From Diabrotica undecimpunctata (taxonomy: Eukaryota; Arthropoda; Insecta; Coleoptera; Chrysomelidae), in assembly GCF_040954645.1 (NCBI RefSeq), contig NC_092813.1, positions 17,987,235 to 18,051,234 of the forward strand: a DNA stretch of 64,000 bases, read 5' to 3'. Numbering within the stretch: position 1 is the first letter of the stretch; every line of letters begins with the position of its first letter. The notes beneath the pieces were generated by a model. The model did not search any database, was not told where the DNA came from, and saw only the letters and a program-made list of their open reading frames with translations. The position numbers and the translations under genes are program-made. Of this stretch, positions 4,021 through 57,610 are shown in pieces.

Positions 4021-5216
4021 AATTAGGGCTGCATGGCTATGCTTTGTGCCCCTCCAATTATAAAATTGGCAGGACCCTGGTCTACCTGGCCTTTCGGCAT
4101 ACGACCGCAAGCGCCTCCACTACCCCTACGAGTCCGATACCAAAATGAGGGTGGCACGATGCATAAAGCATCGCGAGGCTCCACCCTTCCCATAGCATAT
4201 GTGTTGTGATTACGCCTCCCATCCGTTAGTCCCTCCCACGGGCGGAAAGGTGACGCAGCCAGAGAAATTTCCACCTCGCACGTAGACTGGTCACCGCCGA
4301 GGATCTCTCCTCTATCCCTCTTAAATCTCCAGGTGGGTACGTGCCGAGACACCGGCGCCCTTAATGGTGGTGTAAGGTCAAAAGAGGTGGAATGAGAGTA
4401 GAGTGTCCCACGAGAGTCTCGTCTCGGATACTAGGAGTGTAGACCGGTGACCGCGACGCCTAAGCGCCTCGAGTGCGTTTCTACAGACCCAACACCCCAA
4501 GCGACGGCTCTCCACCTCTAGTCGCCTCTTACGTCAGGAACGGCTTTCTGACCCCGGCCGTATTCTTATCTCCGCGAGCCGGACGGAAAATTAGGGCTGC
4601 ATTGCTAAAGTGCGTGCCCTCCAAGTACAAAGACCTGGCAGGACCCTGGGCTACCTATCTCGCGACATACGCCCATAGTGAAACCTCTGCCCCTACGAGT
4701 CCGACACCAAAGTGAAGGTGCCACGCAGCGTGTGCAAGTCACACCACGTGGGGGCTTCACCCTCCCCGTAGTACCTGTGTTGCGAGTACCTCACCTACCC
4801 GTTATTCCCACACCACGGGCGGATAGGCTCGGCAGGCGGAGGAATTTCCCCTCGCACGTAGACAGGTCGCCGCCGAGGATCTCTCCTCTACCACTCTTAG
4901 ATCTCCCGGTGGGTACGTGCCGGGGCACCCACACCACGCCTGACACAAGGTCAGGAGAGGTATGTACGGGCCCAGCTCGTTCAACCTCACCAGGCTCTTT
5001 TGGAATGGGAGTAGAGTGGTCCCACGAGAGTCTCGTCTCGGATACTAGGAATGTAGACCGGTGACCGTGTCGCCGAAGCGACCGTGTGCGTTTCTACCAA
5101 CCCGACACCTCAAGCGACGGCTCTTCACCTCCCCATTCCTACCCATTAGTCGCCTCTTACGACAGGCACGGCTTTCTGACCCCGGCCGTATTCTTATCTC
5201 CGCGAGCCGGACGGAA
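4021..5216. repeat. GC-rich tandem repeat, two ~600-bp units
   Basis: Two head-to-tail units begin with AATTAGGGCTGCA at 4021 and 4589 (568 and 628 bp). A third start at 5217 is cut off within about 15 bases. Blocks shared in the same order include one around 4281-4340 and 4857-4916, and the block ending in CCGCGAGCCGGACGGAAAA at 4570-4590 and 5200-5218. On the minus strand both units carry a near-palindromic TAAGAGGCGACT motif. GC content is far above that of the surroundings. The four open frames over it are not conserved between the units in a coding manner, so I treat it as non-coding, perhaps leader repeats of a LINE or a satellite. The family is not recognised. Confidence 0.75.
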
Positions 5217-5339
5217 AATTAGGGCTGCAGTCAGAAGGTTAGTCGGGACGTTAAAGAAACACTCCTATGACTTTTTGTCCAGCTTTCGGAATTGTTTTAT
5301 TCCTTTTTCAAAACGCTGTAATGTAGATAAAAAGAATAT

Positions 5340-5745
5340 TGTGATGATTTTATTTCAATGTCTATTTAATTTATAATGTCTTTATCAAAAGGTTCTTATC
5401 TTAATTTATTAAAAAGCACAATAACTGATATTAGTTTATTTATCACTAAACATACATAATTTATTAGTAGGCGAGCGTAACAGCAATATCGCGAGCGCGA
5501 ATCTTCTTTATTAACTGCCCCTTCAATTAGAGTTCCGTTATTATATACCAGTGCCGTTATCTCGACAAGTCTAAAACCTTCGATGGCGAAACGGTAAAGG
5601 CAAACTGGATTTCCCTCGCATCGGTTCGAACTCATTCTGGAAGGTCATTCAGGTAAATCGAAGCCTCTCGTAAAATCTAAAACATATTAGCATTAGTCAT
5701 CATATATTTTACAGTTATTTTTAGGCCAGGATATTTATCGTAACA
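5340..5745 (-). repeat. Gypsy-1 3' LTR
   Basis: This 406-bp LTR is identical by eye to 11264-11669. The last few codons of pol run into it (pol stop at 5735-5737). A 79-codon frame in both LTRs (5396-5635 and 11320-11559) is the same because the LTRs are the same, and I do not treat it as a gene. Confidence 0.93.
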
Positions 5746-8700
5746 TTGCCCCCCTCTTAAAAGATGGTTCCTCCTGGAACCTTGTCGGGACTGGAACCGG
5801 AACTGTATGCTGGTATCGACAACTGGACCCTCTTTTACAACTTCCAGTTGTATAAAAATGACAAGGGACGGTTTTCTCTCCGCACCAGTAACTATGCGGA
5901 TTGCAACAGACTAACACCTGGACTTCGGTGTCTTTGAAGATCTCCTCCACCATATTTCGGATAACCCTCCAATCTAATTGGCGGCACTCCAGCTTTGGCA
6001 TGGCTAACTTTTGCACGTCGGACTCTAGTACGTGCTCTCTCAATTGAAGTAAGGCTTCCCATACATCTCGGTAGGTAGGTTGGTCACGGGCAGTGTCTTT
6101 TGTTACCAGGTAGAAAATGTAACGTGATGCATCTTGGAGTTTCAAGGTTTTACCGGGAGCTGGCACCTGGCATTGAAGTTCTGCAACTCGACCAAACTTC
6201 CTTCGAAAGACGGATGCCAACCCTGGTGCGTCTTTGATACTGGCCGGGATGGTAAGGGCCAGCGAGTAGTCATCGGGGAGCGCGAGTAGATCTTGCTTTT
6301 CTTCAGTGGTAACACCATGTCTTGCTTTACTGGTACCTCCATAGGCACCCATGAATTCCTCAAACGTGAGGTCAGACACGTCTTGGACTTGGTTTACTTC
6401 CACTTCTTCATCTACGTCGTGGTCACCTTCGAAAGACGCCAGCCGGTTATGGTGTACTATCATCGGCTTTCCCTTCGGAATCTTGCTTATTCGGTAGATG
6501 ACATCGTTGATCTTCTCCATAATTAGGTATGGGCCTTCCCAAAACTGCTGCAATTTGGGAGAACAACCTTTTCGCTTCTTGGGATTATACAGCCATACTT
6601 TGTCGTTCTTCTTAAAGCAACCCTTTTCGGCTTGTGTATCGTACCGTTTCTTCATTCGGTCGCTAGCGATCTGAAGGTGGGAACGGACTAACTCATGTAC
6701 ATCGTCCATTCTTCTTCGTAATTCGATCACATAATCTTCACCTGCTACATCTTCTCCAGGTCGACATCCAAACTCGAGATCACAAGGTAGTCGCATTTCG
6801 CGTCCGAATAGGACTTTGGCTGGTGTCTGGCCTGTTGATTCGTTAACAGCAGATCTGAAGGCCATTGTGAAGAACGGAAGGTATTGGTCCCAGTCTCGCT
6901 GATGATCGGACACCATCTTTGCCAAATACTTGCCAACTGTCCTATTCATTCGTTCTACCATACCATCCGATTGCGGATGATACGCGGTAGTTCTTGTTTT
7001 CTTCATGCCTAGTCTATCACATATTCCTTGGAATAGATCGCTTTCGAAGTTCCTGCCTTGGTCACTATGTATCTCCAAAGGCACTCCAAATCGGCTGATA
7101 TATTCTTGGACCAACTTATCTGCAACGGTGGCGGCCTTCTGGTCGGGAAGTGCGTAAATCTCGACCCACTTAGTAAAGTAATCCATTACTACCAACATGT
7201 ACTTGCCTCCATTTTCACTTTCTGGAAATGGCCCAGCGATGTCCAAAGCTATTCTTTCAAACGGGCTTCCAACATTATATTGTCTCATAGGAGCTCTCCT
7301 TTTCCGGTGAGGCCCGTTACTCGTAGCACAAATAGTACATTTCTTACACCAGTCTTTTACGTCGTCGGAACTGTTCATCCAATAAAACCGTTCCCGAATT
7401 CGCTGAAGGGTTTTCCTTACACCAAAATGCCCTCCTGATGGACTGTCGTGTAACTGAAGAAGTAATTCGGCTATTCTGCTCTTTGGGATCACCAACTGTC
7501 TTCTTTTCTCTGAACCGTCATCATTTTCCAGGACTCGTTTGAGCAAGCCATCTTCGATGATAAATGAGTCCCACTGGGCCCAATACGTCTTAACTACTGA
7601 GCATAGGTTTGATATTTCCTGCCAAGGTGGTCGACGGTTTTCCTCTTTCCATTTTCGGATTTTCTGTATAACTGGATCTCTCTCTTGTTCTTCCCTTATC
7701 TTAGTAGGCGTCCAGCCGTCGTTGACAATCGTCGTTCTTAGCACTGCTGCTTCCTTGGATTCCGTTTTGTTGCAGTGGGAACACTCTGCTGGGCATGGCC
7801 TTCTGGAAAGAGAATCAGCATTTCTGTGGCTAACTCCGGCTCGGTGCTCAATCTTAAAATCGTATTCTTGGAGTCGTTCGATCCACCTGGCTATCTGACC
7901 CTCTGGATTCTTAAACTGCATCAACCACTTAAGGGCGGCATGGTCGGTTCGGATTAAAAACTTCCTTCCATAGAGGTATTGATAGAAGTGCTCTACTGAT
8001 TTCACTACTGCCAGAAGTTCTCTTCTCGTGACGCAATAATTCCGCTCAGGTTTTGAAAGAACTTTACTAAAATATCCGAGGACTCGTTCCTGTCCTCCCT
8101 GAATCTGAGACAGCACTCCTCCAATTCCGACATTACTTGCATCTGTATCTAAGATGAACTCTCCTTCTGGCAGTGGATACCCTAAAATTGGTGCTGTTAT
8201 TAAATGCTTTTTCAAGGTCTCAAAGGCATTTTGGCAGTCTCTATCCCAGCGGTAATCTCTTGCTTCCTCCGTAAGTCGCGTTAATGGCTTAGCGATATCT
8301 GCAAACTTCTTAATAAACCTCCGGTAGTAAGTACATAGTCCAAGAAAACTTCTCACTTGGTGTTTGTCAGTTGGTTTTGGCCATTCCTTAATGGAATCGA
8401 TTTTTCCTTTATCCACGGCCACTCCTTCTTTACTGACTATATGACCCAGATAATTGACTTTACCTTGAAATAGCTGGCACTTCTTGGGGTTTAGCATCAA
8501 TTGGGCAGCTTTAAGTCGATTAAAAACGTTTTCTAAATTTCTCAAATGATCTTCGAATGTCTCCCCCAAGACGATTATGTCGTCTAAATAAACCAGGCAT
8601 GTTTTCCAAGATAACCCTCTCAACACATTTTCCATCAGCCTCTCAAATGTCGCAGGAGCATTACAGAGTCCAAATGGCATAACGTTGAATTGCCACAATC

Positions 8701-9358
8701 CAGATCCTGTGGTGAAAGCTGTCTTTTCTTTATCTACTGGGTCCATTTCTACCTGCCAGTATCCAGACTTCAAATCCAAAGTAGAAAACAATTTACTTCC
8801 AGCCAATGTGTCCAATGTGTCATCGATCCGAGGCAGAGGATAACTATCTTTCTTGGTAACGTTGTTCAGCAAACGGTAATCCACACAGAACCTCGTCGTT
8901 CCGTCTTTCTTCTTAACCAGGACCACCGGAGAGACCCATGGGCTCGTAGAAGGTTCTATCATCCCGTCTTTCTTCATTTCCTGAACAATCGTTTCAGCTT
9001 CCTCTCTTTTCGCCTGTGGTAATCGTCGAGCTGTTTGACGAATTGGCTTAGCATTACCAGTATCAATTTTATGCTTAACAACGGTAGTTCTTCCCGTCAT
9101 TCCTCCTTTCGGTACGAAAATATCACGGTACTGTCGAAGAAATTCCCTTAATTTCCTTTTCTCCATCTGATTTAGAGACTGTCCTGCAACTGCAACCATT
9201 TGGTCGAATTTGTCGTTGGAATTATCAGATGTTGTCGCCTGACGGATTATGGATGTCACAGGTACACAAGTTCCTACTTTTGTCTCTTTCTTTATGGTCA
9301 CTGGGTAGTCATTGACATTGATAAGCCTCACAGGAATTTCCTTAGCCAAAGTCACCAA
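5735..9358 (-). CDS. pol: Gypsy-1 Pol: RT, RNase H, integrase, macro domain, CCCH finger
   Basis: Residues are counted from a TTG at 9358; the frame opens at 9388 and is reached by a -1 shift. RT has LDLKSGY at ~194 and the YLDD active site at 257-260. RNase H starts with DTDAS at ~404. Integrase has an HHCC zinc module (H637, H644, C674, C677) and the triad D706, D766, E802 (D,D35E), then a GPY module at ~942. After that, where Gypsy Pol usually ends or carries a chromodomain, come two extra modules. Residues ~1022-1155 match the TARG1/OARD1 class of macro domains (a YIFYLVTK segment, a QPTY segment and an AMPKLEC segment). Residues 1166-1184 form a C-x7-C-x5-C-x3-H finger. K1087 aligns with the TARG1 catalytic lysine. 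The GCGLD loop with the catalytic Asp appears shortened and changed, so hydrolase activity is doubtful. The last codons lie in the 3' LTR. Confidence 0.93.
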   Translation of the reverse strand: MVTLAKEIPVRLINVNDYPVTIKKETKVGTCVPVTSIIRQATTSDNSNDKFDQMVAVAGQSLNQMEKRKLREFLRQYRDIFVPKGGMTGRTTVVKHKIDTGNAKPIRQTARRLPQAKREEAETIVQEMKKDGMIEPSTSPWVSPVVLVKKKDGTTRFCVDYRLLNNVTKKDSYPLPRIDDTLDTLAGSKLFSTLDLKSGYWQVEMDPVDKEKTAFTTGSGLWQFNVMPFGLCNAPATFERLMENVLRGLSWKTCLVYLDDIIVLGETFEDHLRNLENVFNRLKAAQLMLNPKKCQLFQGKVNYLGHIVSKEGVAVDKGKIDSIKEWPKPTDKHQVRSFLGLCTYYRRFIKKFADIAKPLTRLTEEARDYRWDRDCQNAFETLKKHLITAPILGYPLPEGEFILDTDASNVGIGGVLSQIQGGQERVLGYFSKVLSKPERNYCVTRRELLAVVKSVEHFYQYLYGRKFLIRTDHAALKWLMQFKNPEGQIARWIERLQEYDFKIEHRAGVSHRNADSLSRRPCPAECSHCNKTESKEAAVLRTTIVNDGWTPTKIREEQERDPVIQKIRKWKEENRRPPWQEISNLCSVVKTYWAQWDSFIIEDGLLKRVLENDDGSEKRRQLVIPKSRIAELLLQLHDSPSGGHFGVRKTLQRIRERFYWMNSSDDVKDWCKKCTICATSNGPHRKRRAPMRQYNVGSPFERIALDIAGPFPESENGGKYMLVVMDYFTKWVEIYALPDQKAATVADKLVQEYISRFGVPLEIHSDQGRNFESDLFQGICDRLGMKKTRTTAYHPQSDGMVERMNRTVGKYLAKMVSDHQRDWDQYLPFFTMAFRSAVNESTGQTPAKVLFGREMRLPCDLEFGCRPGEDVAGEDYVIELRRRMDDVHELVRSHLQIASDRMKKRYDTQAEKGCFKKNDKVWLYNPKKRKGCSPKLQQFWEGPYLIMEKINDVIYRISKIPKGKPMIVHHNRLASFEGDHDVDEEVEVNQVQDVSDLTFEEFMGAYGGTSKARHGVTTEEKQDLLALPDDYSLALTIPASIKDAPGLASVFRRKFGRVAELQCQVPAPGKTLKLQDASRYIFYLVTKDTARDQPTYRDVWEALLQLREHVLESDVQKLAMPKLECRQLDWRVIRNMVEEIFKDTEVQVLVCCNPHSYWCGEKTVPCHFYTTGSCKRGSSCRYQHTVPVPVPTRFQEEPSFKRGAMLR
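5746..5758 (-). promoter_or_regulatory. Gypsy-1 polypurine tract
   Basis: On the minus strand AAGAGGGGGGCAA abuts the 3' LTR. This is the expected place for the plus-strand primer of an LTR retrotransposon. Confidence 0.8.
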
Positions 9359-9369
9359 TTCCTTTCCAA

Positions 9370-9891
9370 TTATGATTCCACGCCAACCTCATCGTCGTGG
9401 TTCCAAGGCTCCATCATAACAGGTCTCCCTTCGTCCACAATTCCCTGTAGCCGCGCTACTATGATCGTTTCGCTTCTCGCAGGCACGACTGTATCTTCTT
9501 TAATGGCTGCTTGCACAGTGTTGTCATTATGTGGATGGAGAAATACTTCCTCGTTGCCAACTTTGATTACCTTATTCTTAAAATCCAATTGGAATCCATG
9601 CATATTCATTACGTCCATTCCTAATATAACATCCTCTTCGATGTCAGCAACTTTAACAGTATGGACAAACTTTTCTGCTCCAATTCCCAATTGTACCTGG
9701 ATTTCTCCATGAATGTTGGCATTTTCACCTGTAGCGGTCCGAAGTCGCAACCTCGTTGGTAACAATTTCTTTCGGCTGTTTATAACTGTCGGACGTATAA
9801 TGGTTCTGGTCGCTCCGGTATCCACCAACAACGTATGCTTTTTACCATTTATGTCTCCATCTACATATACACTATCTTCACGACATTTCAA
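9370..9891 (-). CDS. Gypsy-1 aspartic protease
   Basis: This frame encodes the retroviral-type aspartic protease that processes the polyprotein. LLVDTGATRTII carries the DTG active site, and a later ILGMD segment fits the conserved ILG flap-side motif. The frame has no useful ATG: it opens at 10002, inside gag, and is most simply made as a Gag-protease fusion by a -1 shift. It ends at 9370, and pol continues in the next -1 frame, which opens at 9388. Protease thus lies in its own frame between gag and pol. An extra ~60 residues follow the fold. Confidence 0.85.
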   Translation of the reverse strand: MKCREDSVYVDGDINGKKHTLLVDTGATRTIIRPTVINSRKKLLPTRLRLRTATGENANIHGEIQVQLGIGAEKFVHTVKVADIEEDVILGMDVMNMHGFQLDFKNKVIKVGNEEVFLHPHNDNTVQAAIKEDTVVPARSETIIVARLQGIVDEGRPVMMEPWNHDDEVGVES

Positions 9892-9962
9892 AGAAGCTAT
9901 TAGTATGAGAGGGTCTTTGGAAAAGTTCTGAGTCGAAGCTGTCCCCCTAAGGCTGACCCGTT

Positions 9963-11222
9963 CTAGTTTTCCTGATGGTGAGTTTCTTGATTTGCGTCGT
10001 ACCTAGGGTGTTTACAGGAGCTTCGTACGTGTCCTATTTCGCCACAATTCCAGCATCTGATGGTCTTCGTTTTCTTATATGTCATGCTTTTCATCATATT
10101 AACGAGCTGGTCAAGTTTATCTTCATCTCCTTCCTCTTTTACAGTCCTAACTTTACTGTACCCACCAGAGGCCTGCGTAGCTGACTCGTATTCGAGGGCG
10201 GCGGATAAGACATCAACCAGCGTCTTGTGACGAGCTAATCGTAGTGTTCTCTGCATTTCATGATCACAAAGACCATCAATAAACGTTTGAACGGCCAATT
10301 TTTCCATCATGTCTTCGGGAGCTGTTGGATAAGCATATCGTACTAATCTGGCAATATCTACCTCATATTCTTGAAGAGCCTCATCTTTCTTCTGTCTACG
10401 ATTTTTAAGCTGCGACTGATATACATGCTCCAAATGTTCGTGGCCATATCGCATATTTAACCTCTTCTTCAGTTGTTCGAAATCATCGGTCTCCTCTACG
10501 GCTATGGTCTGAAGCACATCTAAGGCATCTCCTCGAAGAGCGATAGTCAGGTTTACAGCCTTTTCTTTTTCAGACCATCCATTCGCTCTTGCGGCTGATT
10601 CGAACTGTTTCATGTAGTTGTTCCATGATGATTTTCCGTCGAAAGTTGGAACTTTAACATGAATAGAACCTCCACTTCCTTCAAATTTCGGCCGTGTCTC
10701 CAACTTACATTTCGTCTCTTCTTCTTTTGTCTCCACTGTAATTGGATTGTTTCCTCTCTCTGCTGTCCCTGTTTCCTCCATCTTCCTTTCCATCTCTTTA
10801 ATCTTTTCTTCGAAGGCCAACATATCGGCAGCAACTTGGTTTTTTAACGAAGACACTCTATCGTCAAGAGCAGATATCTCTGAAGTGACTTTAGAGATGT
10901 TAGCAGAAACTTTGCTTTCCAGAGAAGAAATCTCGTTAGAAACTTTGCTTTCTAAAGAAGCGATGTCGCCGGATACTTTGTTCTCCAATGATGCGATGTC
11001 GCCGGAAACTTTGTTCTCTAATGATGCGATATCACCAGAAACTTTCGAAATCGACGAGAGGACAGCATCTTCAAATATATAAGTCTCTGAATCTAGACCT
11101 TCTTCTAGCAAAGCGTTCTTTAGTCGTTGGACTAACTCAGCCTTTTTTCCGGTAGAAGCTAATTCTCTGTCTTCGAGATGTCTTCTTAAATTCGTCACTG
11201 TGAGCTCATAAATCGTAGCCAT
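9963..11222 (-). CDS. gag: Gypsy-1 Gag with SAP-like head and zinc knuckle
   Basis: Gag is the structural protein of the element's particles and binds its RNA. The first ATG is at 11222 (a GTG two codons upstream is less likely), giving about 419 residues. Residues ~5-40 (LTVTNLRRHLEDRELASTGK and onward) fit a SAP DNA/RNA-binding motif. Residues ~50-150 are a coiled coil built from an 11-residue unit (VSGDIASLENK and variants), encoded by a 33-bp minisatellite at about 10880-11040. A capsid-like core follows. Near the C terminus a CCHC knuckle reads CWNCGEIGHVRSSC. The protease frame overlaps the end of gag and opens at 10002, so a -1 shift must occur between 10002 and 9963. GGAAAAC just before the gag stop is a candidate site but is not a canonical heptamer. 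Confidence 0.9.
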   Translation of the reverse strand: MATIYELTVTNLRRHLEDRELASTGKKAELVQRLKNALLEEGLDSETYIFEDAVLSSISKVSGDIASLENKVSGDIASLENKVSGDIASLESKVSNEISSLESKVSANISKVTSEISALDDRVSSLKNQVAADMLAFEEKIKEMERKMEETGTAERGNNPITVETKEEETKCKLETRPKFEGSGGSIHVKVPTFDGKSSWNNYMKQFESAARANGWSEKEKAVNLTIALRGDALDVLQTIAVEETDDFEQLKKRLNMRYGHEHLEHVYQSQLKNRRQKKDEALQEYEVDIARLVRYAYPTAPEDMMEKLAVQTFIDGLCDHEMQRTLRLARHKTLVDVLSAALEYESATQASGGYSKVRTVKEEGDEDKLDQLVNMMKSMTYKKTKTIRCWNCGEIGHVRSSCKHPRYDANQETHHQEN

Positions 11223-11263
11223 TTTCACAATTTATTTTACGTATCCCACTATTCCGACACCAC

Positions 11264-11669
11264 TGTGATGATTTTATTTCAATGTCTATTTAATTTATAA
11301 TGTCTTTATCAAAAGGTTCTTATCTTAATTTATTAAAAAGCACAATAACTGATATTAGTTTATTTATCACTAAACATACATAATTTATTAGTAGGCGAGC
11401 GTAACAGCAATATCGCGAGCGCGAATCTTCTTTATTAACTGCCCCTTCAATTAGAGTTCCGTTATTATATACCAGTGCCGTTATCTCGACAAGTCTAAAA
11501 CCTTCGATGGCGAAACGGTAAAGGCAAACTGGATTTCCCTCGCATCGGTTCGAACTCATTCTGGAAGGTCATTCAGGTAAATCGAAGCCTCTCGTAAAAT
11601 CTAAAACATATTAGCATTAGTCATCATATATTTTACAGTTATTTTTAGGCCAGGATATTTATCGTAACA
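11264..11669 (-). repeat. Gypsy-1 5' LTR
   Basis: This 406-bp LTR runs from TGTGATG at the + strand left end to TAACA at the right. It is identical by eye to 5340-5745. Because the element is read on the minus strand, this is the promoter-bearing LTR. Inside it, on the minus strand, the leader begins one base past the LTR with TGGTGTCGG, a possible primer-binding start whose tRNA I did not identify. Confidence 0.93.
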
Positions 11670-11748
11670 ATATGTAAATAGTTACAAAATATCACAATTC
11701 GTCAGTACCGCTTACTAGTCGTTGAGATTATTTATAATACGTAGACGG

Positions 11749-15956: not shown

Positions 15957-17012
15957 TTATAGCAGCGTGTGTGACTTGGCCCTGTCTACAATTTTCCTCC
16001 ATTCTTTCCGGTCCTTACAGCGCTCCTTCCAATTGTAGATTTTCAGCTTCTTTATGTCTCCTAAGACTTGATCTCTCCATCTTGTTTTGGGTCTCCCTTT
16101 TGGTCTCTTTGTTGTTGGTCTCCATCCAGTTATTCGCTTTAGGGTAGAGTCTGGGTTAGCTCTTTCTGTGTGTCCCAGCCACCTGAGCCTTTGCGTCTTC
16201 ACGAACTTGATTATGTCTTCACCCTCGATGACTTCTTTAATTTCTTCATTGGTTAATCTTCTAAATTCGCTTACACTTATTCTCACCGGTCCCATTATTC
16301 GTCGAATTATCTTTCTCTCTAGGATTTCCAACCTCATTTCATCTTTTTGTGTTGGGCACATCGTCTCTGCACCATAGGTGATCACTGGCCTGATTGCAGT
16401 CTTGTAAATTTTTAATTTGGTTTTCTTACTAATGTACTTTTCTTTCAGGAATTTTGGGTAATTCCAGTAGGTTTTATTACCCAGTAGGATGCGTTCATTT
16501 ATTTCATCCGTTCTATCATTTCTGTCATTCATTATCACTCCCAGGTATTTGAAACGGTGTACTCTTTCAAATGTATATGCTCCAAGCTTAATTTTTTTCT
16601 CTATGTTCGTATTCTCTCTTGAACACTTGAGGTATTTCGTTTTGCTTTGGTTTATTACTAGCCCTCTCTTCTTTGCTTCTTTATCTAGTATTAATATTAT
16701 GTTCTGCATGGTTTTTAAATCTCTAGTAACCAGTGCAATATCGTCTGCATACGCTATCAGTTGGGCTGAAGATTCGATAATCGTTCCCATAATTTTGGCT
16801 AATATGTAAAATAATGTTGTTGACAGGGAGTCTCCCTGTCTGACACCTACCTCCATTTGTACTTCATCTGACGGGCCTTCCCTTGTTAAGATTCGTGCCT
16901 TGGATTCCTTCATCGTCATTTTCGTGAGACTTAGTTTTTCTTGGATGCCTAATTGATTCATATCCTTAATTAGCTCCTCCCTATTATTGACTATCCTCCT
17001 CCTGTATTGCAT
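15957..17012 (-). pseudogene. RTE-like LINE ORF2, RT C-terminal half
   Basis: This frame continues RT after the deletion near 17000. It has GVRQGDSLS (motif B region) and the catalytic YADDIAL (motif C), then thumb and C-terminal regions with RLRWLGHTERA and KRPKGRPKTRWRDQVLGDIK. It ends at 15957, about 100 bases before the trinucleotide tail at 15843. Its frame differs from the upstream piece. Confidence 0.8.
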
Positions 17013-18785
17013 CTATTGTTGACTTACCTTCCCTGAATCCATGTTGGTATTCACCTATTTTTGTTCTAGTTTCTTTTTCTATTCTTTGTCTGATCAAATT
17101 AGTTAATATTTTGTACATTGTATTTAATAACGTGATTCCCGTGTAGTTAGTGCATTTCGTCTTGTCGCCTTTTTTAGGGATTGGTGTTATCAGACCACAA
17201 TTCCAGTCGTTCGGCATGCGTTCTTCTTCCCATATTCGTTCTATTACGTTGTGGATTCTGTGGGCTAGTTCGTCTCCCCCTTTCTTAAAGAACTCATTTA
17301 TAATGTCGTCTGGTCCTGCTGCTTTCCTTGTCTTTAATCTGTTTATGGTCGTCAATACTTCGCTATATGAGAGAGGCTCTGATTGTTCTCCATTCCTTTT
17401 TTCTGTTTGTTCTTCATTTTCTGCATTTTCAGCCTCGTCTTTCTTTTTAAACAGTTCTCTATAGTGTGTTTCCAATTCCATTTTTCCAATATTTGCCGGT
17501 ATCTCTTTTTTTCTCTGTGATTTTATGTATTTGTATAGTCTTGCATTGTCATTACTATTGGCTTCGAGTTCCTGCAGTAATTCTTTGATCCATTCCTTCT
17601 TTTTTGTTTTGCAGCATTTGTCTGACTCTTTCTTCTTCTCTTTATAGTGTAGGAGATCTTCTTGTTTCCCTGTGGCCACCCACCTGTGTCTTGCTTTGTC
17701 CTTGTCTTTACTAGCTTGCTCGCATTCTTCATCGTACCAATCCTTTCTTTTATTGTCTTCCATTAGTCCTATCGTCTCTTCTGCTGTTGTTAAGATACTA
17801 TCTTTTATGTCTTCCCATGTTTTATCTATGTTTGATGGTTTTAGGACTAGTAGTTTTTCTTCTAATTTAGTGCAGAATTTTCTGTTTGCATTATCTGTAT
17901 TTAGTTTCGACCGATTCCACCTCTTTCTTTTCTTTCTGTCGTTTTTATCTTTAAGTATCTCCAATTTTATGTCGCCTATCACCAAAATGTGATCCGAATC
18001 AGCATTGGCTCCCCTGTATGACCTTACATTCTGTACAATTGTTCTCCATTTTTTTGAGATTAGGATGTGGTCTATTTGGTTTCCATCTGCTGTTCCAGGT
18101 ATTAGCCACGTTACTTTGTGCTCTTTTTTGTGCTTGAATTGAGTGCTAATAATAAAAGTATTGGTTGCTGCTGCTAGATTACATATTCTCCTGCCATTGT
18201 TATTCGTATTTTGAGGGATCGTTTCTTTTCCTGCGATTTCTCTGTTCGTGTCTTCTTTCCCTATCTTTGCGTTGAAGTCTCCTAGCAGGATTAGTATGTC
18301 GTTCTTTGGTATTTCTTCGTACAATTCTTCAAGTTTCTCATAGAATTCATTCTTTTCTTCTTCAGGAGCATTCTCAGTAGGGGCATATATGTTGACAAAA
18401 ATGTTAAATTTGCTTATTTATTTTTCATTCTAATATATGATATTCTTCCATCAACCGCTTTAAAGTTAATAATCTTGTCTCTTACGCTATTACTAACTAG
18501 AAAGGCAGTTCCATTGAGCCCCTGTTTGCTTTCTCCTGCGTAGTACATTGTGTAATTTCTTCTAGCAATCATCCCTTCTCCTGTCCACCTTATTTCTTGT
18601 AGCGCTAGTATTCCCATCTTGTATTTTATCATTTCTTTTGCCAACTCTTCCATTTTGCCTGGTCTTAGAAGTGTTTTGATATTCCACGTTCCTATTCTTA
18701 TTTTTCTATTTTTGTTTTTTGCTTTATTTTGTTTTGTTTTGTTTTTGCGTCTTTTCTTACAAAACAGTTTCATGTCCGTATTCAT
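16984..18785 (-). pseudogene. RTE-like LINE ORF2, endonuclease and RT N-terminus
   Basis: The endonuclease begins with a TWNIKTLL segment and has LQEIRWTGEG, LLGDFNAKIG and SDHILV, so the catalytic residues remain. A frame change near 18400-18414 splits it into 18414-18785 and 16984-18324. RT follows with AAGPDDIINEFFKKGG and a GFREGKSTIDAIQ block and then breaks off at ~17000. The sequence resumes at REELIKDMNQLGI, so the stretch with RT motif A and its catalytic Asp is missing. Confidence 0.8.
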
Positions 18786-37448: not shown

Positions 37449-38703
37449 TTAATCAGAAATTGGAAGAGGTGCTAATTTTATTATGGGGCGAACATATTCA
37501 CCTTCTGCTGTTTTTACACGTGCAGCGCGAACTTTACCATCCCTTCCAGTCAATAATTCCAAGATTCTACCTAGTGGCCAATTTAAAGGAGGGCGATCTT
37601 CAGATTGTATGAGAACTAGCTGATTGATCGCCAAGTTTTGTTGGGGTAGTTGCCATTTGGGTCTATGCTGTAGACGGTGCAAATAATCCACAGACCATTT
37701 TCTCCAAAACTCTTGTTGGAGTTTGGAACACACTTTCCAATAAGAAAGCCGATTAGTAGGGGTCCTAGAAAGATCCCTTTCTGGGTAAGAAATAAGGGGA
37801 GCTCCAATCAGAAAATGGCCAGGAGTAAGAGGCAAGAGATCATTAGGATCGTTAGAAAGGGGATACATGGGACGACTATTTAATATGGCTTCAATTTGCA
37901 CTAATAAAGTAGACAGTTCTTCAAAAGTAAGGCAAGTATTGCCGAGCAATTTGGTCAAATGAAATTTAGCACTCTTTACAGCTGCTTCCCAGAGTCCGCC
38001 CCAATGTGGAGACCTGGGAGGGATTAATTTCCAGGTAATTTCGGTGGAAGAAAGAAAATTCTGAATTTCGTGATTATTTTCTTTGGATTTCAGAAATAAA
38101 GATGTCTCGTAATTGATTACGAGCTCCAATAAAATTGGTGCCGTTATCAGAGTAAATTATTTGAGGATTTCCTCGACGACTTATAAACCGTTTTAATGAA
38201 GTAATAAAAGCTTCCGTGGACAAATTGGAGACAAGTTCTATATGGATAGCCTTGGTTACCATACATATAAAAATGGCTATATAAGCCTTAGTGGTGGGGG
38301 CCTTCCTTAATCTAGAGGAGCGAATCATAATAGGACCAGCAAAATCTATTCCGGTCTTAGAAAATGGACGAGCCTGTTGAACTCGATCCAAAGGCAAAGG
38401 GGACATTATCTGTGATGCAAATTGAGCATTAAATCTATGGCAAATAACACACTTTTTAATGATAGTTTTAATTCTTCGTATACCATTTAACGGCCAATAT
38501 CGAAGACGAAAATTTCCAAGGACATTTTGAGCTCCACTGTGTCCTAAACGCATATGTTCCCGATTAATTAGTAGATCGACAACATGGTCATTTTCAGGGA
38601 GGAAAATGGGAAATTTCTGAGAAAAACTTAATTCGGTATATTCAAGTCGACCTCCTACACGGAGTATGCTATTTTCATCAAGGAAGATATTAAGAGGAAG
38701 CAA
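37449..38703 (-). pseudogene. BEL-1 integrase region
   Basis: Two frames, 38074-38703 and 37449-38129, make up the integrase, which inserts the element's DNA. The first has an HHCC module (HMRLGHSG then CVICHRF) and the first two catalytic Asp residues in FAGP and YSDNGTNF contexts. The second supplies the third, in GGLWEAAVKSAK, and a C-terminal DUF5641-like block (WPLGRILELLTGRDGKVRA). The frame change lies between them near 38075-38129. Confidence 0.82.
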
Positions 38704-39445
38704 TTTGGGAGTTGAAATAGATTTTCCCTCCTGTAATAGTTTGATTTAATTGGAAAAAAGAATAAGATTGGACCTGTTTTATAATAAAATCATGGGCATT
38801 CTGAAGCTCTTCTACTGTCAAAGGACTGCCAGAAATGTTTATCTTTTTAAATTTGAGAATCACTTTAAAACTAAAAGCGATTCCTTTTTGCATGCTAGAA
38901 AATTTCGAAAATTTTAAAAATATAGATTTCCAGAATTGTTCTGGCGATTCAGTAATGGGAAATGATACTTGCATGCATTCAGGTACTTCATTTAGAAGTT
39001 CAAAAGAATCAATAGAATCAAAATCATTGGTTTGAGATAAAAAATGAGGACCATGAAACCAGAATTGATGAACATCAGATGAAAAATTTCCACGCGACAA
39101 ATGATCAGCGGGATTTAACGGAGATCTGATATGTCGCCATGTGGTATTCCTGCTATTATCACGAACAGTAAGGACTCGTTTTTTAACAAAAGGAGATATC
39201 TCTAATTCAGACCTTTTAACCCATGTTAAGGCAACTAATGAATCGGACCATAAATTAATGGACTCAATATTGATAGTATCATGCAAAATTTGTATAATCC
39301 GAGAAGATAGGATGGCAAGTAACTCCATAGAGCACAGCTCTAATTTAGGAATTGTAAGTTTGTTCTTTAATGGATTGACTCGGGACTTTGCGGCAATTAA
39401 TCTTGAAGAGAAAGTATTATCATTATAGCTAACGACAAGGTACAC
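38690..39445 (-). pseudogene. BEL-1 RNase H region
   Basis: The frame opens upstream with GFCDASQLAYGACVYL and contains the SKSRVNPLKN block, PKLELCSMELL and NLWSDSLVALTW, then NPADHLSRG. This is the BEL-type RNase H plus linker. Just upstream (39445-39474) the expected ~100-residue connection to RT is missing. A stop and a frame change sit at the join. The frame ends at 38690 and the integrase frame starts there. Confidence 0.8.
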
Positions 39446-39473
39446 ACAGGCTCCATAGGCTAGTTGACTAGCA

Positions 39474-42008
39474 TCACAAAAGCCGATTGCACTGCACGAT
39501 TAGCGGATTGATCACACCCAGGGGGTCAAACACAGAATAAATGAAAGATAAAATACTGCGTTTAGTTAAAACAGCAGGTTCTTGTATATTAGTAGTACGA
39601 ATAAGTAAGAGGTCAGACAGAGGGTTCCATTTTAATCCTAGTATGTTACTAGGGAAGCCATTAATATTAAAATCAATTTCGTAGGACGAAGTTTGTGATA
39701 TCGTAGATAAAAATTCAGAAGAGTTGGATTGCCATTTATGAGGCTTAAGTCCGTGTTTACCCAAAATAGTATTAAGCTCCGAATATATTGTTTCTAGAGA
39801 TGAAAAATCGTTAGTACCTGACAAAATATCGTCCATATAGGTTTGTCTAAGTAGAGCATACCGAGCATTAGGGAAGTTAGGATATCTCTCAGCGATATCC
39901 TTTAAGACACGCGTAGCCAAATACGGTGCACAATTTTGCCCAAAACTAAGACTTGAAAGTTGAATACAGGTGAAGGGATCAGAAGGATTTTCTCTCCATA
40001 AGAAATTTTGGAAATGACGTTGTGATGGATTTATATCTATAAATCTATACATCATTTGAATATCAGCACAAAGGACAAATTTGAAACAACGGAACCTACA
40101 TAATATGTCAAAGAGATTGTCCTGTACTTGGTAACCTTTTGAAGTTAGGTCATTTAAGGACACTCCGGTATCAGTACGGGCGCTAAAGTCAAAAACTACT
40201 CTCACAGGCGTTGAACTGTGTTTCCGTATTACAGCTCTGTGGGGGATAAAATATTTAAATTCATTAGTAGGATGATTGTAAAAAGATAACGGGATTACTT
40301 GAGCGTGATTTAAAGTAAGATATTCATATATAACATTCTTATAGTTTTGAAATAAACTTGAATCACAATTAAATTTTTTCTCAAGAGAGATAAATCTTTG
40401 GCGTGCCATGCAAAAAGACTGCCCCAATTTTGTGGGCATATTTTCAAGGAAGGGCATATCGACCTGGTAACGACCTGACGGTAAAATAATAGTGGTGTTT
40501 TTGAATATTTGTTTTGCAAGTTCTTCGCTAGAGCAATGATTTTTTGATAGTGGAATAGTTTCTAATTCCCAGAAACTTTCCATACGACGGGTCAACTCAT
40601 CTTCTCTTTCGAATTGAACATCATTAGTTGTAATATAAGAATGATAAACATTATTTTGGTTTGAGGAAAAATTTAAGCGGCTCCTAGGTATAGGACCGGC
40701 GATAATGTAACCCAGATAAGTTTCAACTAAAGAGGGGGATCTAGGTCCCATATTAATAATATTAGATTTAAGTAAATTAAAATAAATATCAGCACCAAGA
40801 AGTAAATTTATAGGCCCAGTTTTAAAGAAAAATGGGTCGGCAAGTTCGGGTATTATATGTTCATGTAATTTTAGAACCTCAGGAGATATAGAAAATTGGG
40901 GGAGATTATTTGTTATTTTGTTTATAACAGAACAAGAAACGTTAAAACTAATTGATGGGTTAACAAGAGAACTAAATTGTATATCTAGCACTTCTCTACT
41001 TTTAGCACAATTGGTACTACCTAACCCAGAAATATTTACAAATTGTGTTCGAGAGGACAGCTGCAAATTTTTTGCAAAGGAGCTTTCAATGAGACTCATT
41101 TGACTAGCAGAATCTAATAGTGCTCTTGCCACCTTTTGTTGACCATTAGAGCATCTGATATTTACAAGAGCTGTAGGTAAAAGAACTATGTTATCAGAAA
41201 TAGATACAGTATGGAGTGAAGCTTGCTGAGATGAGGGATGAGCATATTCAATAAATTCATTACTTACAGGGTTCATATTTGGAGACAAAGATTTATTTAC
41301 AATATGTACATTAGATGGTTCTATTCCATGATTGATTCCTCTAAAACGAGAGGTCGTATTTATATTTGGAACGTGATTATGAGTTTGCGTACTAGGGCAT
41401 GGGTTTGATTGATTATCAAAATGTAAATAAGTGTGGTGAGGTTTCCCACAAGTGGAGCATCTTTTTAAAGATTTACATTGCGGTATTGCATGAGTGTTAC
41501 TGAGGCAATTTATGCAATATTTCTTAGATTTGACAAATTGATATCTTTCGATTTCAAATTTCGAACATCCATAAATAAGATGATTAGACTCTTTACAATA
41601 AAAACAATTAGCACGGACGTTGTAAGATTGACGTTGAAGGTTATTTACATTAGAAACTAATGAAACCTTATTTTTTCGGCCGTCAGTGTGTCTGGAATAA
41701 AATTTGGAAGAATTGGGTTCAAAAAGATTTAAATTTTCTAAAACGGATTGTCTTTTATTCAAAAATTCAAAAAATTCTTCCGCAGTAGGAATGATTCCCG
41801 TATCTCGCTCGCTCTCAAACGCTTTCCTAGAATTGAAGTCAAGTTTTTGTTCTAGCAAAAATATAATTAAACATTCCAATTTGATTTGAGGAGTATGACC
41901 TGTATTATTTATTAAATCGAAAGTTTTACGAGAGGTAATATAGAATTCCTTCAAATCATTTGCTGTGCTTTTTGATAAACTTTTTTGTTCTACCAAAGTT
42001 TGGTACAA
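39474..42008 (-). pseudogene. BEL-1 Gag C-terminus, protease and RT
   Basis: An 844-codon open frame. The Gag part has CFYCKESNHLIYGC and two further Cys-His units up to CGKPHHTYLH. The A17-type protease has ALLDSASQMSLI as its active-site block, with Ala after DS where many relatives have Gly. RT has VVFDFSA, DIQMMYRFI (motif A) and TYMDDILSG (motif C). The frame ends at 39474 just after GVINPLIVQ, where the deletion begins. The protein itself looks sound, so the inactivating lesions lie on either side. Confidence 0.85.
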
Positions 42009-46116: not shown

Positions 46117-46626
46117 CTAAAGAAAAATATTACATTTGGTCAAAAAATCGATTATGCAATCGTAAATTAATCTATTTTGAGTCGCTAGGGCAGATAAAAC
46201 GTTAAACGGAGATTTACCGGTAATACGAACTATATTATTATATAATAAGGTGGATTCCAAATTATATTTGGCACAACCAAAAATTACATGATCTAGGTCA
46301 CCTTCTACTCCACATTCCACACAGTTTTTACTCTCGATCACATGAATCCTTGCAAGATGAGCAGGAAAACAAGCATGTCCAAATTTAAGCCTAGATATGG
46401 TTGTTATATAACGCCTAGGGACATTATAAGTTCTGTGCCAATGTGCAACAGGGACAGTTGTGTGTAAAGAAGTGTATCTATTTGGGTTGGTAAAACAAAA
46501 CTCAGACCATAGGTCACTCCATTTATATTTTAAAACTGCCTTGCGTGAAGCAACCAAATCAGAAATACTGGGTAGAAATTCTGTGGTATCCACTGAATAA
46601 ATACTTAATTTGGCTAGTTGGTCCAC
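46117..46626 (-). pseudogene. LINE-C ORF2, C-terminal part after a frameshift
   Basis: This frame continues ORF2 after a one-base slip. The shifted frame upstream reads FIWAKAHSGIKHNEH (~46630-46675), the end of RNase H, leading into DQLAKLSIYS. A C-terminal block with SRLKFGHACFPAHL and CVECGVEGDLDHVIFGC matches the Cys-His region of I-type ORF2. Confidence 0.82.
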
Positions 46627-49600
46627 ATGTTCATTATGTTTAATTCCACTGTGTGCTTTGGCCCATATAAATTTTTAACATTTTTTTTATTTTCCTTAAA
46701 GTGTTTAACTAATTTTTTAATTAATACTATGTAGGGATTGGAGTATGTGGTTGGAACAAAAGGTTGGTTAATGGCTGTGAGAACTGACATGGAATCTGAA
46801 ACAATAATAACGGAGGAATCTCTGTTAGAAACAAAAAGTAGGGCTTGATATATGGCAATTGCTTCCGCACTAAATATGGAAATATTTGCTTTTAATTTGA
46901 ACATTTTTTCTACCTTCTCCATGGGGATGTAAAAGGCACATCCTGTACCGTCTTCTGATTTGGAGGCATCCGTGTAGATAGTACTGTAGTAATCCCAATT
47001 GGATAAGATGCTTGTTATAATGTTGTTATTTGCTCTTCCAGTGTTAACATAATTTGGTTTAATAAATTTAACGCTATAAAAAAGAGCTTCAAAATCATTT
47101 ATATCTGTGTGTGATTTTAAATTAATAGCTTCATCAGCACAAACTGTGTTTTCTCTAAGAGCTTCACATAGGGTTGGAGAATTTTTCTTAATCCAATATT
47201 TATTCGTTAAATCATAATTGTTTAAATTTGTTAATTCGGTATAAAGGAAAGTGTTCTGGTGTTTAATTTTCAGTAAAAATTTTTCGGCCAAGAAATGTCT
47301 TCTAAGAGAAATTGGAGGCTCACGTGCTTCAACATAAAGGGGCTCAATAGGAGTTGTCTTCATGGCACTAATACAGATACGCAAACACTGGTTTATAAAT
47401 ATGTTTAATTTGTTTAGTAAGTTCTTGCTGGCAGATCCATATAACCAACATCCATAATCTATGATAGAGCGAATGTAAGTTCTATAAAAAAGTAAGGAAG
47501 TCTGAACATCTGTTCCCCACCAAGTTTTAGTTGTCATTTTCAGAAAGTTTAGGCCTTTTTCACATCTATTTAACATATATTCTATGTGAAATTTCCATGT
47601 GAGCTTGTGATCCAGTATAATGCCCAAATATTTAATTACCTTTTTAAAAGGAATTTCTCGCTGTTTTACTATAAATGTTTCGATATTGGGAATATTATGT
47701 CTACTGAAAATGGTCACTGCTGATTTTGTGGCCGACAGCTGAAGGTGATTTTCTTCCAACCATATTTCTACAACGTTGTAGGTATCCATTAAAAATCCAA
47801 AAGCTTCATCTCTCTTCTTTGTTTCACAGTAAATGCAGAAGTCATCTGCATATTGGATGATCTTAAAAGGATATTTTTCCAACTTTAATTTATGTAGGTC
47901 AGCTGTGTATAAATTGAAAAGAAAAGGACTTAAGACAGCTCCTTGTGGAATTCCTGTGAAAACATATCTTGGGCCTAATAAATGGTTGTTAAAATCCCTG
48001 ACATAAACATGTCTTTCTGAATATAATCCGATAATAGCATACACTATTGCCTTAGGAATGTTAAAATCAATAATCATTTTTTTACTCAAAATATTTAAGT
48101 TTAAGGTGTCATATGCTTTCTCAATATCAATAAAAATTGTTGGAAGAAAGTTATTTCTAGAGAAATTATTTTGAATATTTGTTACTAAGGTTGTAAGTGC
48201 ATCTAGCGTACCCACTCCTCTTTTGTATGCAAATTGACAGGGCGTAAGCAGGTCTTTTTTATGTAGCCACCATTCCAGCCTATGTTTTATCATACGTTCG
48301 AAAGTTTTTTGCACACATGATAGCAGAGAAATTGGTCTATAAGAATGGGCCAAGTTAGGGTCTTTACCTTGTTTAGGAATCGGTGTGATTATAATTTTCC
48401 TAAAATCTTCAATGCACTCACCTGCAAGCATCTCATCAAAAATTTGTAGAAGAAAACTTTTTGCTATAATTGGTAGGTTCTCTAACATCGGATACTTTAT
48501 TTGATCAAAACCCGGGGCAGTACTTTTTTTATTTCTTAAAGCATAATTTAGTTCATTAATGTGAAAATTATTTGCCAAAAAATGTTTTTTATCTAAGATC
48601 GTATGTTCGATATTTACAGTGAAAGGAACAGTCTGGGGAGCTACATGATTAAAAAACTCATCTATTAAATCATCATTATGTGGCTTACCAATGTTTATTG
48701 TTTTACGATTCATTTTTTTTGCTTGTTTCCATATCATGCTAGTTGGAGTATTTTTGTTGAGATTGGAACACCATTCAATCCAACTTTTTTTAGCTTTTTC
48801 TTTTAATGTTCGTTTAGTAAGTGCCATGCATTTTTGGTATGCAAGAAAATTATCTTTTGTGGGGTTTTCTTTGTATACTTGCAGTACATGTTTCCTTTCA
48901 GAAATTATGTTGTCACATTCTGCATCCCACCAAGGTGAAGGTGTTCGATTTTTGCACTTAAACGGTCTGTATTCTTTTAAAGTTCTTTGTGCCGCATTAT
49001 TTATACAATTGATTAAGAATGCATATTTTTCTTTGGTGGTTGGATATTCTGCATCAGTAAAGTTATAAAAGTAGTCTTCCACAAACTCTTTATATTGTTC
49101 CCAATTAGCTCCTTTTAGGTTCCATCTATATCGCGGAATTGTGATGTCCTGCAGAATTTGCTGCATTGCAAGAGTTATTTTTATCATAAAATGATTCGAT
49201 CCAAGTGTGTCAGAGTAAACTGCCCAATCTATATCACTAGCTACGTCCGAGGAGCAAAAGGTAACATCTATCATAGAATCATTGCATCCTGGCCGGGTAA
49301 TACACGTGGGTTCGCCAGTATTCATAACTACAAAATCACAATTATTGCTTGCTTCAATGAGTTGTTTACCAATAGAATCGTTTTTATGGGATCCCCAAGT
49401 AGCATGATGCGCGTTAAAATCCCCACCAATAATACATGGAGTTGAAAACTGCGAAAAAATATTTACCCAATCAGTTGTGTTGGTTTTAATATGCGGTGAC
49501 CTATAAACGGAAATTATACTTAAAGTTTTATTGTTGAATTTGATATTAATACCACAAACAAGAAGATCGACATTAAAATTGGAAACTATGCTTAATTCTA

Positions 49601-49821
49601 GGTGTGAAATCGACTTTTTGACCAAAATGCAAATTCCTGAAAAACCATCTTGTCTATCTTTACGAATTACATTATAACCTACGAAACTATATACTTTTTT
49701 GGGTTTAAACTATGTTTCACTTATTATTGCTACATCAATATTATTATTTACAAGATAATGCATTAGACTATTTTTATTCGAAACAGCAGAACGTGCATTC
49801 CACTGACAAATATTTAATGTC
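46614..49821 (-). pseudogene. LINE-C ORF2, endonuclease, RT and part of RNase H
   Basis: The frame begins near 49821 with LNICQWNARSAVSN, the endonuclease start, but no ATG precedes it. A TAG at 49710-49712 breaks it at a position where relatives have Trp. After that 1003 codons are open: GGDFNAHHATWGS, GSNHF (relatives often have SDH), RT motif A TIFIDIEKAYDTLN, motif B IPQGAVLSPFLF and motif C QYADDFCIYC. RNase H begins at TIYTDASKSEDG. A frame change in an A-run near 46676 ends the frame within RNase H. Confidence 0.85.
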
Positions 49822-49840
49822 TTTGGTAATGGAGTGAAGG

Positions 49841-51283
49841 TTACTTTTTACATGTGTCCTCCAACACTTTATTTATCCCTGTTTGAATTAAATCATTATT
49901 CAAATTTTTGATATCTTCAATGGTATGAATACCTTTTAAAAATTCAACTATAAAATCTGCAATTGACTTTACAATGTTTTTGTTATTTAAATTTTGATAA
50001 TTTGGTGGATTATTATTTCGAGGCAGTGGTTGATTAGGGCCAAACTGAAACGGAAACATCGGTTGTGGAGGAGGAGTGTCATTAGAAATTCGACGTTTTT
50101 TATTGCTATGGCCGGTAGGACTTCGTGTAGGATGGGTGGGCAAAACGTAATTGCTATTATTCTTAAAATTTGAGTGTAAAAGGGAGTTAGAATTTCCAGA
50201 CTTAGATTCAATCGCTGGTAAAGGCGGAAAATTGGAGTTGGATAAAATAGAAAAACTATTGTTTACAGATATACCAGAATAAGACATTTCACAATATTCT
50301 TTTGCCTCAATAAAGGAAATATTTTGTTCAACCATAACATTCTTAATTTTACGTTGTTTTTCATAATGAGGACATTTTCTTGAAATAGAAACGTGGTCAT
50401 TTGTTTTACAATATAAACAGCGAATTTCTGAATCGTGACAAACATGATTTTCAGCTTTTACATTACTACACTTAATACATAACTCTTCAATATTTTTACA
50501 TTGCCTAGAAATGTGACCATAGCGTAGACATCTGAAGCACTGTGTAACTCTGCTAAAAAACCGCTCCACCGAAAAATATACACTATTTATTGAAATATAA
50601 CTAGGTAAAGTGTTCCCTTCAAAAGTTACAATAATGGTTTTTTTGGGGACATACTGTATATCACCATCCTTTTCTATTCTACGATGTGTACGTTTAACAT
50701 CAACTACTGTTGAAGGAGATTTTATGTTATCTAAAATATATTTCGTATCGAATTGAGTATCAATATCTTTTATCAAACCCTTAATTTCTAATAAATGATT
50801 TGGTATAAACGCTACAAGATCATTTTCTGATAAAAGAGGATTGTTTACTAAAGCATTGGCATCAGAACATGTTTTTAGACTAACTTTTATTCTATTTTTT
50901 CCAACAGATCTAATTTGGTTAATATTGTTAACATTTAGTTTTTTGTGTAAGATATCTCCCACAAATAAGGGATGAAGACGGCCGGCATTTTCAATATTTT
51001 TTCGTTCGATAAAAACACAAATATTACTCAAATTATACTTATCTCCATTTCTTAGATTAAAAACTTTAGGTGTTTTATTTTGTTTATAAATATCCTTTTC
51101 TTTATCACTAATGACCTGACGACTGGTTTCAGCTGTTGTCTCAGCACTTAAAGTGGTATCCATGTCTTGTACGGGGACCGATAAATAATTTTCTGATTCC
51201 GCATCACTTTTAGAGTTATTTGCACTCATTGTCTGGTTAATAGTTACACCTAACAGCGTCTTTCTTTTTAAAGCTTCCCCCAT
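49841..51283 (-). CDS. LINE-C ORF1 (gag-like nucleic-acid-binding protein)
   Basis: A 480-residue open frame starts at an ATG at 51283. Residues ~90-220 form a conserved pre-knuckle domain. Three zinc knuckles follow from about residue 250: CFRCLRYGHISRQC, then a CIKC unit and a CLYCKTNDH unit. After that come a Ser/Asn/Pro-rich stretch and a helical tail. ORF1 proteins of this kind coat the element RNA. The frame has no stop and looks intact. ORF2 begins immediately downstream, overlapping its end region. Confidence 0.85.
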   Translation of the reverse strand: MGEALKRKTLLGVTINQTMSANNSKSDAESENYLSVPVQDMDTTLSAETTAETSRQVISDKEKDIYKQNKTPKVFNLRNGDKYNLSNICVFIERKNIENAGRLHPLFVGDILHKKLNVNNINQIRSVGKNRIKVSLKTCSDANALVNNPLLSENDLVAFIPNHLLEIKGLIKDIDTQFDTKYILDNIKSPSTVVDVKRTHRRIEKDGDIQYVPKKTIIVTFEGNTLPSYISINSVYFSVERFFSRVTQCFRCLRYGHISRQCKNIEELCIKCSNVKAENHVCHDSEIRCLYCKTNDHVSISRKCPHYEKQRKIKNVMVEQNISFIEAKEYCEMSYSGISVNNSFSILSNSNFPPLPAIESKSGNSNSLLHSNFKNNSNYVLPTHPTRSPTGHSNKKRRISNDTPPPQPMFPFQFGPNQPLPRNNNPPNYQNLNNKNIVKSIADFIVEFLKGIHTIEDIKNLNNDLIQTGINKVLEDTCKK

Positions 51284-57578: not shown

Positions 57579-57610
57579 AATTATTAAACCTAACTAACAA
57601 AGAATGCGAA

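Follow-up and report, generated by a model that had tools for sequence, protein, structure and literature searches.

A TARG1-type macrodomain fused behind the integrase in a Gypsy lineage found in Diabrotica undecimpunctata

At one locus of the beetle Diabrotica undecimpunctata, a Gypsy Pol protein continues behind its integrase into what looks like a macrodomain, which raises the questions of what this domain is, whether it belongs to one copy or to a lineage, where it came from and what it may do there. The window, by which we mean the whole stretch of 64,000 nt of NC_092813.1 that was analysed, had been given a preliminary description from its letters, in which a TARG1/OARD1-like macrodomain was noticed behind the integrase; this observation was confirmed, the coordinates being right and the coding strand being minus. 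The Gypsy element in question occupies 5340-11669 on the minus strand, and its family is hereafter called the window family. Its features, from the 5' to the 3' end of the element, are as follows.

11670..11673, no strand: right copy of the target-site duplication, ATAT
11264..11669, minus strand: 5' LTR, 406 bp, starting with TGTTAC and ending with TCACA on the minus strand
11245..11262, minus strand: probable primer-binding site, starting with TGG one base internal to the 5' LTR; found by eye, no tRNA assigned
9963..11228, minus strand: gag ORF, with a SAP domain near the N-terminus, Retrotrans_gag and a CCHC zinc knuckle
9370..9891, minus strand: aspartic protease ORF, in a frame different from those of gag and pol
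5735..9358, minus strand: pol ORF, with RT, RNase H, integrase (H2C2, rve and p58 C-terminal domain), macrodomain and CCCH finger
6434..6658, minus strand: integrase C-terminal domain region, Pol residues 901-975, with the Integrase_p58_C match at 942-974
5894..6295, minus strand: TARG1/OARD1-like macrodomain, Pol residues 1022-1155
6098..6100, minus strand: codon of Lys1087, the equivalent of the TARG1 catalytic Lys84
5969..5992, minus strand: shortened Asp/phosphate-binding loop, two residues shorter than in TARG1, with no Asp at the Asp125 position
5807..5863, minus strand: CCCH zinc finger, C-x7-C-x5-C-x3-H, Pol residues 1166-1184
5746..5758, minus strand: polypurine tract, adjoining the 3' LTR and doubling as codons near the Pol C-terminus; found by eye
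5340..5745, minus strand: 3' LTR, 406 bp, with the pol stop codon (5735-5737) just within it
5336..5339, no strand: left copy of the target-site duplication, ATAT

Architecture of the element and identity of the domain

LTRs, a target-site duplication, a primer-binding site and a polypurine tract (the latter two by eye) identify the element as a Ty3/Gypsy LTR retrotransposon, and its domain order of gag, protease, RT, RNase H and integrase is the Gypsy order. The LTR pair is identical across all 406 bp, in agreement with the earlier view that the copy is young. As regards an assignment to Errantivirus, there is no env ORF between pol and the 3' LTR of element 5340-11669: pol reads on through the polypurine tract and has its stop codon within the 3' LTR. 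The frames of protease and pol/RT are offset at about 9370-9391 in the window copy, unlike in three related Pol proteins described below (P0002, P0011 and P0012), where protease and RT share a single frame; many of the scored genomic copies of the window family have longer open frames. The SAP domain of Gag (PF02037, E 8.5e-7) is another nucleic-acid-type module of the same element. Beside the insertion site, GC-rich blocks at 4269-5229 of the window are repeated once at a spacing of about 576-628 bp (families D5, D6 and D8).

Pol residues 1022-1155 match the TARG1/OARD1 type by profile (E 3.7e-43) and by structure comparison. In a test of macrodomain class the fold is nearest to TARG1, in the ALC1-like macrodomain class, and the structure predicted for the domain has its fold intact. 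A chance resemblance is ruled out by the match in the PDB, by the profile and by the structure comparison. The identity and the macro fold proposed earlier are thus borne out, and the Pfam domain map of Pol likewise places the domain after the integrase. To judge from its sequence, the window macrodomain is a TARG1-type member by descent and its status as an active TARG1 is unsupported, because Asp125 and an intact diphosphate loop are both missing in the window copy.

The CCCH finger behind the macrodomain was found with PF00642 in the whole Pol (E 1.3e-5, 25.5 bits against a cut-off of 20.5); its C-x7 spacing is one residue below the C-x8 of the Pfam description, and the nearest PDB entries are CPSF4 fingers (E 1.8e-5). 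The pLDDT of this region in the predicted structure is <50, and the AlphaFold model of the related 867-residue P0008 has a mean pLDDT of 49. No chromodomain was found among the Pfam matches to the window Pol up to E 1, and the macrodomain occupies its place.

Spread and origin of the fusion

The preliminary description had regarded a macro domain as exceptional in Gypsy. This view did not hold: two protein searches using regions of Pol turned up eight further Pol proteins with the same fusion (P0002, P0003 and P0008-P0013), of which P0010 and P0013 come from the beetle Callosobruchus maculatus, and the domain is instead a standing module of this lineage. The six relatives that cover RT are 76-93% identical to the window over RT, with open frames. 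The CCCH motif is present in eight of the nine Pols scanned (that of the window and its relatives), that is, in seven of the eight relatives; the P0013 model stops short of it. Near the C-terminus, five relatives have LRRGQC and one has LRREQC, and these protein letters would fit a polypurine tract and an LTR start read in the same frame, as in the window copy.

When the isolated domain was used for a protein search, Diabrotica matches appeared at 74-83% identity. The proteins found in this way were P0004 and P0005, Diabrotica virgifera gene models named 'OARD1-like'; P0006, from the firefly Aquatica leii; and P0007, a Diabrotica virgifera 'tachykinin-like peptides receptor' model that seems to include an element piece. 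Since element sequence precedes the domain in P0004 and P0005, the two look like element fragments.

Within the 1.743-Gb assembly that contains the window, the macrodomain query gave 5532 first-look candidates. The best 150 of them, the window's own included, were all 99-100% identical and had no internal stop; being the top-scoring places by construction, they are biased towards stop-free copies. With this bias in mind, the segment is open in 149 other scored places, the best-scoring ones, and is neither absent nor degenerate in these copies, a result in favour of the earlier interpretation. A query with the integrase C-terminal domain gave 150 scored places, all at 100%, and in 30 loci excised from this search the macrodomain was in register in every one; none differed in more than 15% of codons, and the 30 held a single stop in the macrodomain and a single one in the CCCH tail. 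When the same genome was queried with P0011, which keeps the catalytic dyad, all 150 scored places were stop-free at 55-57% identity. The ten of these loci that we read form a second family (for example, loci L086-L097), with a domain 41-43% identical to that of the window, and in the two loci read with flanks, the integrase C-terminus, macrodomain and CCCH motif lie in one frame. The macrodomain fusion is a lineage trait of a Gypsy lineage. A one-off fusion or an assembly artefact is ruled out by the eight other Pols, by at least 150 places in the own genome and by the second family. A search of viral contigs with the window module or the whole of P0011 gave no relative, and none was found in the genome-contig search.

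As for the source of the domain, a query with the TARG1 domain of the sawfly Athalia rosae revealed one standout place in the own genome (51% identity, E 2.2e-33; the next place, 2.2e-24). This locus (L098, G000:C3:100933900-100934900) lies in a frame that is open over 760 residues, has both residues of the catalytic dyad and matches human TARG1 with E 1.9e-35; it probably represents the TARG1-like gene of the host itself. A tree of 21 macrodomains united all 13 element rows in one clade (support 98/97), and the own-genome TARG1-like gene was sister to it (94/93); four rows from IMG/VR formed a separate clade (100/99). The base of this tree is weak (72/49), and human TARG1 did not group with the insect genes. 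Another tree, which contained 12 of the 24 IMG/VR domains and neither the host gene nor the second family, likewise united the element rows, 11 in this case (99/97). Macrodomain and integrase identities also covary (r 0.89, over 36 non-independent pairs of nine Pols). A single capture from an insect-type TARG1 gene, with later descent along with the element, is the simplest account; a capture from bacteria or their viruses is disfavoured by both trees.

Active site and selection

Residues of TARG1 are numbered in our alignment on the assumption that its first residue is 14, which puts the Lys and the Asp at 84 and 125 as in the papers. The catalytic dyad of TARG1 consists of Lys84 and Asp125 (PMC5087735, PMC9411070, PMC7050489; the last of these writes Glu125), and neither bacteria nor human cells were rescued by a Lys84Ala mutant when their DNA was ADP-ribosylated (PMC8501950). 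The equivalent of Lys84 is present in 12 of 12 element rows of the alignment, in accordance with the earlier remark that the catalytic Lys is retained in the window copy (Lys1087). The equivalent of Asp125 is present in 8 of the 11 element rows that reach this column, and the full dyad is thus kept in 8 of 11, a count that includes the near-copies P0010 and P0013 (94% identical). The three rows without the Asp are the window, P0002 and the Diabrotica P0004, and they have in common the two-residue loop deletion, which had also been noticed earlier, and an altered first loop. The window family has thus retained the Lys, with changes at Asp125 and in both the phosphate loop and the first loop. 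The second family has Arg in place of Lys84 in all ten loci read, with the Asp and the first loop kept. Two families of one genome have lost opposite halves of the dyad. In a separate tree the dyad-keeping group was unsupported (31/5), so that the order of the losses can be followed no further than two separate broken clades.

The preliminary description had argued from the shortened Asp loop to a binding role. That step does not stand by itself, because DarG, a hydrolase of bacteria, works with the Lys alone (PMC9411070) and the loss of the Asp is thus no proof of binding. The non-catalytic reading survives on other grounds: with both loops damaged and with the complementary change of Lys to Arg in the second family, hydrolysis by the window-family domain appears unlikely. 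Since the dyad is broken in both families examined, hydrolysis of the TARG1-dyad kind would not be what keeps the domain in this genome. Overall, the earlier interpretation is upheld in the identity and position of the domain, the Lys, the loop, the youth of the copy and selection; its one-off view and its passage from loop to binding are not.

Signs of the selection that had been presumed from the open frame are seen in the following comparisons. The macrodomains of the window and P0002 are 68% identical over 129 residues with zero gaps, and their mismatches are conservative, with a mean BLOSUM62 of 0.34 against a neutral value of -0.53 +/- 0.27. Among neutral simulations run to the same identity, 1 of 3000 was as conservative, 140 of 3000 were stop-free and 0 of 3000 were both. 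The same simulation test gave 2/3000 for the integrase core, 79/3000 for RT and 1054/3000 for the linker. The CCCH region of the same pair showed no conservative pattern (mismatch mean BLOSUM62 -0.33, 3 gaps).

Among the 30 copies chosen by their integrase C-terminal domain, the nonsynonymous to synonymous rate ratio of the macrodomain was 0.44 (16 and 11 variants, one of the 16 being a stop), and 0.24 when variants found in at least two copies were counted (4 and 5 variants); the ratio for all variants is based on these 27 codon variants. That of the integrase was 0.22 for all variants and 0.09 for shared ones in 27 of the 30 copies, L057, L066 and L067 being left out of the integrase count only and the macrodomain count using all 30. 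For the linker the two ratios were 0.56 and 0.38, and for the CCCH tail they were 0.61 and 0.27; few variants underlie either pair. Counts from the copies found with the macrodomain query (19-20 synonymous and 2 nonsynonymous) were discarded, because these copies had been ranked by the very segment under test. On most branches the rate of change in the macrodomain is about 2- to 4-fold that in the integrase. Within the broken-dyad clade the ratio of macrodomain to integrase branch length is 2.3 to 3.5, inside the range of the other branches (about 1.1 to 4.4), with the very short tip of P0013 outside that range (macrodomain/integrase branch ratio 0.2). These results, with their small counts, together speak for a macrodomain that is constrained, more weakly than the integrase is.

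Possible roles and known systems

We lean, by a slight balance of probability, towards a history in which a single capture of a TARG1-type domain gave an ancestral eraser borne by the integrase, and in which the window family now has a non-hydrolytic reader or a structural module. An insect gene would have supplied a Gypsy lineage, once, with an ADP-ribosyl hydrolase domain of the TARG1 type, and this domain and the CCCH zinc finger would have been joined to Pol after the C-terminal domain of the integrase. The computed results carry the fold, the fusion, its spread, the single origin, the active-site changes and the amino-acid constraint; ancestral catalysis, packaging, substrate and counter-defence are inferred. 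As it lies within Pol, the macrodomain should be packaged with the other Pol domains and travel alongside RT and integrase. TARG1 removes ADP-ribose from RNA uracil and DNA thymine, and of the three TARG1 paralogues of Drosophila, two act on U-ADPr (PMC13036486); its substrates also include nucleic-acid ends and proteins (PMC7050489). The ancestral domain most likely stripped ADP-ribose from the RNA or cDNA of the element or from proteins at the integration site. Such removal would blunt a putative host PARP response, and the CCCH finger would hold nucleic acid. In the window family, because the active site has decayed, with the Lys kept and the Asp and phosphate loop gone, the module would most likely be non-hydrolytic and serve as an ADP-ribose reader or as a structural part of the integrase. 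A more specific version sees an arms race between retrotransposon and PARP: the eraser on the integrase, once part of a host-type TARG1 gene, would remove or recognise the ADP-ribose that the host attaches to the element's RNA and cDNA or to target chromatin, and the two families would have become non-catalytic readers through opposite losses of the dyad; we put this forward tentatively, as an idea whose chances are below even.

Two other roles seem unlikely to us. The domain may never have been hydrolytic and may guide the integrase by binding ADP-ribosylated chromatin or DNA breaks, at the place held by the chromodomain in chromoviruses. Its position directly behind the integrase C-terminal domain would suit such a targeting function, as would the lack of a full dyad in both own-genome families examined and the constraint on the window family; but a pure reader has no need of the hydrolytic dyad that most relatives keep (8 of 11 rows), and the window family has altered ADP-ribose loops. 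With an equally small probability, the domain of the window family is a tail that takes part in folding or interactions of the integrase and has no ADP-ribose function, selection acting on the fold only. The window, P0002 and P0004 have changes in both of their ADP-ribose loops with the fold predicted intact, and the nearby linker is unconstrained in the same simulation test, both of which accord with a structural tail; the Lys84 equivalent is nevertheless kept in all 12 element rows of the alignment, the loop-damaged ones included (in the second family it is Arg). A decaying host fragment carried as a passenger, which would agree with the decayed active sites of the two families, is very improbable and already disfavoured, since divergent elements share the fusion with open frames (76-93% RT identity), replacements in the macrodomain are conservative and the 150 scored copies are stop-free, though these were selected by macrodomain score.

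Known systems offer partial likenesses. RNA viruses are known to use macrodomains to counter ADP-ribosylation by the host; insects, to our knowledge, have no interferon. Chromoviruses have an extra domain, the chromodomain, at the integrase C-terminus. The position is like that in the window element, and the fold and ligand are different. A 2019 opinion on accessory domains of retrotransposon polyproteins (PMC6338049) counts the chromodomain among those known from LTR elements; in its text 'macro' occurs only in 'macrophage-like', and ADP-ribosylation is absent. The nearest precedent found is in epsilon-like endogenous retroviruses of fish that carry macro-domain ORFs (Basta et al. 2009, cited in PMC4977317) and are likewise retroelements with an acquired macrodomain; as described in the citing passage, they differ in having additional ORFs and no fusion to a Gypsy integrase, and the macrodomain class is unstated there. 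TARG1/OARD1/C6orf130 itself differs in that the element domain is a C-terminal part of Pol followed by a CCCH finger, and in that the window family has lost Asp125 and has an altered phosphate loop and an altered first loop. The macrodomain of the antitoxin DarG, a partner in a bacterial toxin-antitoxin system with a structure holding ADP-ribose (5m3e), is 20-25% identical to the window domain. Macro folds also occur in other mobile genomes, of insects and of bacteria: VP8 of Kadipiro virus is alike in a fold comparison only, outside the tree, as the top BFVD row (35% identity, E 7.9e-15); lower BFVD rows include proteins of insect-associated RNA viruses and phages. A TARG1-like macrodomain relative is also encoded by 24 viral contigs of IMG/VR (L001-L024), which differ in forming a separate clade (12 of the 24 in one tree and 4 of the 24 in the other). 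The GCGLD loop is kept in all 12 IMG/VR rows examined, and these 24 contigs possibly counter ADP-ribosylating defences.

No macrodomain in a Gypsy Pol was found in the open-access literature among the matches listed, most subscription journals and Repbase being outside this scope. The capture of a host domain by a retroelement is of a known kind, and a macrodomain on a Gypsy integrase is a new form of it. A TARG1 domain retained on a retrotransposon integrase would suggest that ADP-ribosylation of nucleic acids or chromatin bears on insect transposons too. Between them, the dyad-keeping and dyad-broken relatives amount to a set of naturally occurring mutants, and copies of the element are numerous enough for tests.

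The window contains further elements. A second Gypsy-type element at 56358-62913 (plus strand) has a gag-like ORF, a pol and a third ORF, which we take to be env-like; its pol gave no Macro match. Broken pieces at 37449-42008 (minus strand) and 51563-53804 (plus strand) are presumably BEL/Pao-like polyprotein ORFs, and ORFs at 15957-18324 and 46614-51283 (both minus strand), with endonuclease and RT-like text, are presumably non-LTR retrotransposon ORFs. At the beginning of the window, 1-285 and 765-1049 form an inverted repeat with arms of 285 nt that are 98% complementary and 479 nt apart.
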